Shown here: positions 20,057-24,015 of the stretch, in pieces
How the letters are laid out: each line of letters begins with the position of its first letter
How positions within the stretch are numbered: position 1 is the stretch's first letter
Source of the DNA: Nitrospirota bacterium
GTDB taxonomy: Bacteria > Nitrospirota > Thermodesulfovibrionia > Thermodesulfovibrionales > JdFR-88
Direction: 5' to 3'
Length of the DNA: 34,258 bases
Assembly: GCA_021789935.1 (NCBI GenBank)
Contig: JAJYIR010000018.1
Location: 14,538-48,795 of the forward strand
Position numbers and translations under genes: made by a program
Notes under the pieces: generated by a model
What the model saw: the letters and a program-made list of their open reading frames with translations, nothing else
Database searches by the model: none
What the model was told of the DNA's origin: nothing

Positions 20057-20086
20057 TTGACAACTCCCCCCTGTAACTGGTAATAA
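20057..20086 (+). promoter_or_regulatory. Probable promoter of the NtrC-like gene and U-rich leader
   Basis: TTGACA (20057-20062) is full consensus; the A/T-rich TAATAA (20081-20086) follows at 18 bases as a modest -10. The leader of about 70 bases contains an unusual run of T6-G-T7-GC-T6-G-T5 (20101-20128), then a GGGGAAA far from the ATG at 20161. The function of the U-rich tract is unknown. Confidence 0.45.
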
Positions 20087-20160
20087 TTTTCGTCCTTAGG
20101 TTTTTTGTTTTTTTGCTTTTTTGTTTTTAAGAACTCTCCGGGGAAACATTTTTTAGCAAC

Positions 20161-21534
20161 ATGGCCGACAGAACTATTCTTCTAATCAGCAGCGATGAAG
20201 CTTACGCGGGATTTTTAAAAAAAAACCTCGAACCGTCAGGCTACATCTTTGAATTGAGGGGGTCCCTTCCCGCCAATTTAAGGCGCCAGGGCTATGAGGC
20301 GCGTCCCCTGATGATAGACCTGGCAACGCCCCGTTCAGTTGAGATACTGTCTTCTTTCAGGGCCTATCATCCGGAGGCAAGCATCATTGCCGTATCGGAC
20401 GGCGATTTCAAGAAAATGGAAGAGGCCCTGAAGGCCGGAGCCTCATACGTGGTCTTCGAGAGAAACGGAGGAGACCCTCATACCCTTAAAGAGATCCTTC
20501 GCCACATCTATGAAGGCTTTTCGGCCAGGCAGGAACTGGAGGCACTGAAGGCCCTCACAGAGCCTAAAATAGTGGCGAAAAGCGCCAGGATGAAGACCTC
20601 CATGAAGCTGGCTGAGGACGCCGCGACCCTGCCTTTTCCGAATGCGGACAAGCCGGTGGTCCTTTTCGGGCGGCCTGGCTCCGGGCGGGAGCTTGTAGCA
20701 AGGTATATCCATTTGTGGAGCCACAGGGCCGGTATGCCGTTTGTGAAGGTGGAGGATGAAAGCGGGCTGGCGGAGGCGGTAATGGCGGCAAGAGGCGGCA
20801 CACTGTTCATAAAGGAACTGGGGGTGCTGGGCGAAGAGTCCATGGCCGGCATCAAAACCCTGATAGGCAAAAAAGAGTTTCTTTTTCTTTTTCCCCCACA
20901 TGACGGCTCCGGCCCGGCCAAGGCCGATGTGCGCGTCATGTCGGGCTGTTTTTGCCCCGAAGACGCCGCCCTGCTTCAGGGTGCCGACTACATGGGCATC
21001 GAGGTCCCTTCAATAGAGGAACGCAAGGAGGACATAGTCCCGCTCGCGAACCATTTTATGGAGGAGCTGTCTGCGTTCCTGAAGACAGGAAAGAAATATT
21101 TCACCAAAAGCGCCAGGGAGACGCTCGTGGGTCGGGAATATCCGGGAGGGGTGGCCGAACTCAAGAAGCTCGTGCACAGGGCCTACTTCCTCGGCACGAC
21201 GAGCGCGATAGGGGACAAGGACTTGCTTGGCTCCGAATTCCTTGGGAAATGCTCCTTTAAAAACTTCCTGGATGAAAGGCTCAGGCTTTATCTGAGGAAA
21301 ATGGCCCAGTTTGAACGCTCTAACCTTTATGACACCGTTGTGGGCGAGGTGGAGAAGGCCCTTATCGAGCTTGCCCTGAGCGAAATGAAAGGCAATAAGT
21401 TGAGGGCGGCAAAGGCCCTGGGCATGAACAGAAACACGTTCCGGGCGAAGATCAAGAGTTTGAAGATCAAGGGAGACGGAAAGAGCCCCGCTGCCGCCCC
21501 TGCGCAAAAACCATCCGCAAAAATAGAAATATAG
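20161..21534 (+). CDS. NtrC-family response regulator with degenerate AAA+ domain
   Basis: 457 residues in REC - AAA+ - Fis-type HTH order. The receiver-like domain (1-120) keeps a possible phospho-acceptor Asp53 (LMIDLAT) but lacks a clear acidic pocket. The AAA+ domain has Walker A GRPGSGRE (170-177) with Arg176 where Lys is needed. Walker B is GGTLFIKEL (212-220) with Lys218 for Asp. The 40-odd residues holding the GAFTGA sigma54-contact loop are absent. The sensor II motif reads PGGVAEL, not PGNVREL. The C-terminal HTH (about 396-435, GNKLRAAKALGMNRNTFRAKI) is intact. It should bind DNA but neither hydrolyse ATP nor open sigma54 promoters by the usual mechanism. Its targets are unknown. 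It is monocistronic with no sensor kinase nearby. Confidence 0.85.
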   Translation: MADRTILLISSDEAYAGFLKKNLEPSGYIFELRGSLPANLRRQGYEARPLMIDLATPRSVEILSSFRAYHPEASIIAVSDGDFKKMEEALKAGASYVVFERNGGDPHTLKEILRHIYEGFSARQELEALKALTEPKIVAKSARMKTSMKLAEDAATLPFPNADKPVVLFGRPGSGRELVARYIHLWSHRAGMPFVKVEDESGLAEAVMAARGGTLFIKELGVLGEESMAGIKTLIGKKEFLFLFPPHDGSGPAKADVRVMSGCFCPEDAALLQGADYMGIEVPSIEERKEDIVPLANHFMEELSAFLKTGKKYFTKSARETLVGREYPGGVAELKKLVHRAYFLGTTSAIGDKDLLGSEFLGKCSFKNFLDERLRLYLRKMAQFERSNLYDTVVGEVEKALIELALSEMKGNKLRAAKALGMNRNTFRAKIKSLKIKGDGKSPAAAPAQKPSAKIEI

Positions 21535-23999: not shown

Positions 24000-24015
24000 T
24001 GGCACGCTCATTGCA
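24000..24015 (+). promoter_or_regulatory. Full-consensus sigma54 promoter immediately before lpxC
   Basis: TGGCACG (24000-24006), four free bases, then TTGCA (24011-24015): every specified position of the -24/-12 consensus TGGCACG-N4-TTGCA is matched. The predicted start is about 24026, three bases before the lpxC ATG at 24029. No good sigma70 -10 partner exists for the TTGACA at 23950-23955. The 23845-23999 stretch shows no gene. Confidence 0.7.

Follow-up and report, generated by a model that had tools for sequence, protein, structure and literature searches.

The window analysed here, a stretch of 34,258 nucleotides from a Nitrospirota bacterium, raises the question which role is left for a regulator of the NtrC family once the residues of activator chemistry have disappeared. 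A preliminary description of this DNA had suggested a new role on the grounds of the clean loss of all activator functions, and clade-wide loss together with a retained and constrained DNA-binding domain bears this out. Based on our data, we consider it likely that the gene is an orthologue of an NtrB-partnered NtrC-type activator which has lost its activator functions and that purifying selection maintains it as a DNA-binding protein working without ATPase.

Results

Domain architecture and lost motifs

In the 457-aa protein (Table 1), HTH_8 (residues 395-432) and AAA_lid_14 exceed the Pfam cut-offs, the sigma54-activator domain is matched as fragments only, and Pfam finds no receiver domain. 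All five hallmarks of a sigma54 activator are absent, namely the Walker A Lys, the Walker B Asp, GAFTGA, the Arg fingers and the sensor II Arg. The preliminary description had correctly read the three substitutions, the GAFTGA deletion and the open frame, and even understated the loss, as the missing Arg-finger segment had escaped it. Among 15 aligned orthologues, D12 of the receiver is invariant and the phospho-acceptor Asp53 is retained and nearly invariant, while the conserved Lys is substituted. The R-N-T of the recognition helix and the subsequent K are invariant in 24 of 24 aligned domains, including those of HTH-only proteins.

According to an AF2 model (mean pLDDT 83.8), the NtrC architecture of REC, AAA+, lid and Fis-type HTH is predicted to be kept with the catalytic residues gone. 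Residues 3-129 align to the CheY-like receiver 3crn (Z 16.3, 2.4 A), the AAA+ part to FlrC 6luf (Z 22.7, 2.5 A over 214 residues), and the best full-length structural match is NtrX of Brucella abortus (5m7p, Z 23.1). The structure prediction thus supports the earlier statement that receiver-like and Fis-type HTH domains persist, the former in spite of being invisible to Pfam.

The leaders of several orthologues (upstream regions of L010 and L012-L014) carry a conserved GC-rich block, CCTCCGGGGGGAGG, which may be an operator, a leader hairpin or a ribosome-binding element. In the window gene the block, which separates the promoter from the start codon (approximately 20134-20145), is weaker than in the relatives, and the window shows no clear enrichment of it.

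Table 1. Coordinates of the regulator gene, its domains and its motif remnants within the window.
Feature	Position	Strand	Evidence or remark
ATPase-dead NtrC-family regulator	20161..21534	+	ATG start, 457 aa, no internal stops
Degenerate receiver domain, aa 1-118	20161..20514	+	Alignment of 15 orthologues, 3crn fold match, dN/dS
Degenerate AAA+ core, aa 137-282, predicted fold intact	20569..21006	+	Pfam fragments, AF2 model, least constrained domain
Walker A remnant GRPGSGRE, aa 170-177	20668..20691	+	Lys replaced by Arg176
Site of deleted L1 loop including GAFTGA	20734..20799	+	GAFTGA and flanks missing between about aa 197 and 210
Walker B remnant GGTLFIKE, aa 212-219	20794..20817	+	Asp replaced by Lys218; Glu219 retained
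Sensor I to lid, without Arg-finger segment FREDLYYRF	20923..21036	+	Comparison with intact orthologues
AAA+ lid, aa 283-356, conserved	21007..21228	+	Pfam AAA_lid_14 at 287-355; dN/dS 0.05-0.14 (within f1 genera)
Sensor II remnant YPGGVAEL	21139..21162	+	Arg replaced by Ala332
C-terminal dimerisation and Fis-type HTH, aa 367-436, best conserved part	21259..21468	+	Pfam HTH_8, C-terminal profile, dN/dS
Sigma70-type promoter of the NtrC-like gene, TTGACA-N18-TAATAA(T)	20057..20087	+	Family-conserved (upstream-region alignment)

Conservation and constraint within the family

The family of the source genome (f1) comprises 12 genomes from six genera, the close ones apparently metagenome-assembled. 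All five motifs are absent and the frame is open in 12 of 12, and the other 11 orthologues share 41-85% identity with the window protein. The recurrence of the same losses in every member excludes chance. Within the genera, whole-gene dN/dS is about 0.13-0.22, the near-identical pair G008/G010 being uninformative. Values are mostly 0.03-0.11 for the HTH (0.03-0.04 in genus g1, up to 0.11 in g5), low for the lid (Table 1), mostly 0.07-0.20 for the receiver and 0.19-0.39 for the AAA core, which is the least constrained domain. Constraint is therefore inverted between intact and degenerate families: in the former the AAA core is among the best-conserved parts (identity 0.80-0.85), whereas in the latter its identity of 0.29-0.49 falls clearly below that of the lid and the HTH (0.55-0.83 for the HTH).

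The sister family f8 (grouping on the RpoB tree, support 96*) is nearly as degenerate, with none or one of the five motifs, so that the motif loss probably predates the split of f1 and f8. Neither intact relatives at this locus, which would have indicated recent decay, nor frequent disruption of the gene was found in the two families. The NtrC-like gene is neither a pseudogene nor a recent decay product.

Orthology across the order

A profile of the C-terminal domain (66 positions) was run against 176 genomes of the order and found a strong match in 157, one per genome except for two in each of three genomes; 19 genomes had no strong match. In a tree of lid and HTH, intact and degenerate proteins cluster together and are separated from eight further activators encoded in the same genome (96*). 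In addition, the degenerate gene of family f9 lies in the same setting as the intact gene, proA-nadD ... rpsF-ssb-rpsR (gene names assigned by reading the sequences). By this sequence evidence, the window gene is the single-copy orthologue of the NtrB-linked NtrC-like activator of the order. With NCBIfam TIGR01818 (NtrC) the window protein scores 110.2 bits, below the cut-off of 558.6, but this is not decisive for its identity, since the intact orthologues miss the cut-off as well (473-525 bits). As no genome exceeds it, TIGR01818 was dropped as a marker of true NtrC versus other activators. Besides the window protein, the source genome encodes 19 proteins whose sigma54-activator domains are strong.

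Loss of the kinase and stepwise erosion

An NtrB-like kinase is present in 77 genomes, and intact orthologues are encoded directly downstream of its gene. In the kinase-positive genomes, all 70 classified orthologues retain four or five of the five motifs. In contrast, the activator is degenerate in 66 of the 67 genomes lacking the kinase: no motif remains in 41, one in 13, two in 11, three in one and four in one, the single motif of two HTH-only proteins being a chance match. These counts, as well as those for glnBA below, are not phylogenetically independent. On the RpoB tree, the kinase state needs eight changes and the motif state seven; an independent-pairs association test reaches only 5 to 0 (p 0.06) because few starred branches lie between the states. 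Outgroups of class and phylum carry the intact kinase-activator pair, which makes the intact state most likely ancestral. A distant genome of the phylum (L271, G212) has an intact NtrB-NtrC-like pair near nifH.

The degenerate proteins occur as full-length forms (f1, f8), forms of about 300-350 aa (f9, f10, part of f3), forms of about 205 aa consisting of receiver and HTH (f6, G121) and HTH-only forms of 71-107 aa (f7, four f10 genera, G113). Within f10, some HTH-only forms and the longer forms share tgt and CDF as neighbours.

The kinase beside the f8 gene in G018 was considered as the cognate partner, still present in f1 but no longer linked to the gene, and this candidate was dropped: it is linked to pilD and distinct from the NtrB-like kinase, with which it shares about 30% identity. 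The pilD-linked kinase is conserved (L189 3063-5893, from source-genome contig C13, and L190-L197), and in most cases its neighbours are a prepilin peptidase and a short protein with a membrane anchor; in G018 (L072) the kinase and the membrane-anchored protein adjoin the degenerate NtrC gene.

The probable ancestral target glnBA

Kinase-positive genomes have a (GATase)-glnB-glnA operon with a sigma54-type promoter and, about 66-112 bp upstream of this promoter, the palindrome TGCCT-N7-AGGCA. Box and promoter are present in 13 of 14 testable kinase-positive genomes (the exception is G063) and in none of 19 kinase-negative genomes at glnA or P-II loci, although this type of glnA is itself missing from some of the latter. 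Hence, glnBA was probably the ancestral target, and from the co-occurrence we infer that the intact protein binds the box. Genome-wide, the box does not separate intact from degenerate lineages (1.57 versus 1.35 per genome). For the degenerate protein, the analysis yielded neither a binding site nor a target. P-II genes showed no match to the E. coli NtrC box. The source genome contains two P-II genes in tandem (C45:5653-6359) that may be of the nifI1-nifI2 type, and given these genes the organism may fix nitrogen despite its dead NtrC.

Gene neighbourhood

Downstream of the gene, mtnP-tldD is found in the majority of f1 loci and in several loci of f8, followed by lpxC where the contig extends. 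Upstream of lpxC lie a conserved promoter, TGGCAY-N5-TTGCW, and a conserved block. In the window this is the sigma54-type promoter TGGCACGCTCATTGCA at 24000-24015 (+), ahead of the true lpxC start at about 24029, with the block TGTGTCTTTTTTGCAAC...ACAACA upstream of it; promoter and block are kept in f1 and f8. Judging from this promoter, sigma54 appears to control lpxC, a gene of lipid A synthesis. The divergent neighbour rarA is not conserved even within f1, being non-adjacent in several members, and two f1 members (genus g6) carry the gene at a different locus.

Discussion

Sequence comparison across the order establishes that the proteins are orthologous, which motifs were lost and how old these losses are, that the kinase has disappeared, that the HTH is constrained and that other lineages have been reduced to HTH-only forms. 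As the residues of activator chemistry are gone, constraint is strongest on the HTH and HTH-only forms exist, the selected function would lie in DNA binding free of ATP and sigma54. Most likely, the protein is an ATPase- and sigma54-independent regulator, Fis-like in action, whose selected function is carried by the DNA-binding domain; the action itself is most likely that of a Fis-like architectural protein or a repressor. In this scenario, an NtrB-partnered NtrC-type activator would have lost the capacity to bind and hydrolyse ATP, the contact with sigma54 and the kinase that partnered it, while a second function, DNA binding without ATPase, may already have been present in the ancestral protein. 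The C-terminal domain would bind palindromic sites as a dimer and act at promoters in a Fis-like or repressor-like manner independent of an activator ring, and the receiver and AAA+ folds would stay in f1 as scaffold or input modules.

With its retained Asp53, the f1 protein could also serve as a phospho-controlled regulator of the sigma70 type, in which phosphorylation of the receiver by another kinase controls either binding to DNA or interaction with sigma70 RNA polymerase, with no ATP used by the regulator itself. We regard this as possible, though less probable than a Fis-like or repressor action: the near-invariant aspartates, the constrained receiver and the precedent of the sigma54-independent relatives TyrR and HupR, which work with sigma70 (PMC3162934), fit such a role, but the conserved Lys of the receiver is substituted, the domain is not recognised by Pfam, the cognate kinase is missing and some orthologues have no receiver at all. 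It is unlikely that the protein acts locally on its neighbours, either rarA or lpxC with its sigma54 promoter. The recurrent mtnP-tldD(-lpxC) arrangement and the conserved lpxC promoter and upstream block would suit this role; however, orthologues elsewhere have different neighbours, the g6 pair lies at another locus, and the divergent rarA region, named in the preliminary description, is not constant in its adjacency, which makes a specific link to this gene unlikely.

The same description had proposed a dominant partner that mixes with active enhancer-binding proteins. Entry into hexamers of active activators, as a dominant-negative or tuning subunit, has an AAA+ fold predicted intact (Z 22.7 to FlrC) and 19 potential partners in its favour, but seems quite improbable, because the Arg fingers needed to form the inter-subunit site are missing, no domain is less constrained than the AAA core and orthologues of other families that lack the AAA+ ring domain have been retained with the HTH only. 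Least probable is a decaying gene, a pseudogene in waiting. Shorter forms in several lineages and the 19 of 176 genomes without a strong match might be taken as signs of decay; against it stand dN/dS far below 1 for every domain, the open frame in all 12 f1 genomes, the conserved promoter and the nearly identical state of f8, which points to a loss older than the f1/f8 split.

We give about even chances to a repeated stepwise conversion within this one order, from a kinase-driven ATPase activator via an ATPase-dead regulator to a free-standing Fis-like DNA-binding protein. If this reading is correct, intact NtrC would have a second, ATPase-independent function in DNA binding that outlasts the loss of sigma54 control of glnBA, and the order would harbour living intermediates for the proposed transition from NtrC to Fis. 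Our literature searches found no paper on such a series from intact to dead to HTH-only. NtrC-family proteins devoid of sigma54 contact are known, but those cited here were characterised singly, whereas a single orthologue can be traced in this order as intact, partly eroded, fully dead and HTH-only, its erosion going along with a missing kinase and, in the loci tested, with a missing sigma54 promoter and box at glnBA. This opens up two testable questions, whether selection acts on an ATPase-independent role of NtrC and how an activator can give rise to a small nucleoid-type protein such as Fis, and calls for caution in annotation pipelines that label such genes as sigma54 activators.

Compared with its closest counterpart, the intact NtrC-like (NR-I type) orthologue of the same order, the window protein shares domain order and fold and has a very similar HTH, but lacks the five motifs together with the NtrB-like kinase and the glnBA sigma54 promoter and box. 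The structural neighbour NtrX of Brucella abortus is a different orthologue (22% identity over the structural alignment). NtrC of Caulobacter and of Rhodobacter capsulatus are GAFTGA-less as well; they have likewise lost the sigma54 contact loop and yet retain action on DNA (PMC10274813). However, in NtrC of Caulobacter the Walker A Lys and the Walker B Asp are still present, and both are required for growth in defined medium (PMC10274813), whereas the window protein has lost both, and its kinase too. TyrR, DhaR and HupR are known to combine loss of GAFTGA with a sigma70 role, and the same was argued for VpsR and YplP; like the window protein, these activator-family members have lost, or are believed to have lost, the interaction with sigma54 (PMC3162934). 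The window protein shows the hallmark of the TyrR/HupR type, GAFTGA being lost and the HTH retained; in that source these proteins are grouped by the GAFTGA change, while complete loss of the ATPase motifs and stepwise shortening are features of the present case. Finally, Fis itself was proposed to derive from the C-terminal domain of NtrC (Morett and Bork 1998, as cited in PMC7166090). Against NCBIfam PRK00430 (Fis, cut-off 99), the window protein, which in contrast to Fis is full length, scores 44.7 bits and an HTH-only orthologue 71.1, both below the cut-off, and Fis is the best match of those HTH-only and receiver-HTH proteins for which scores were obtained.
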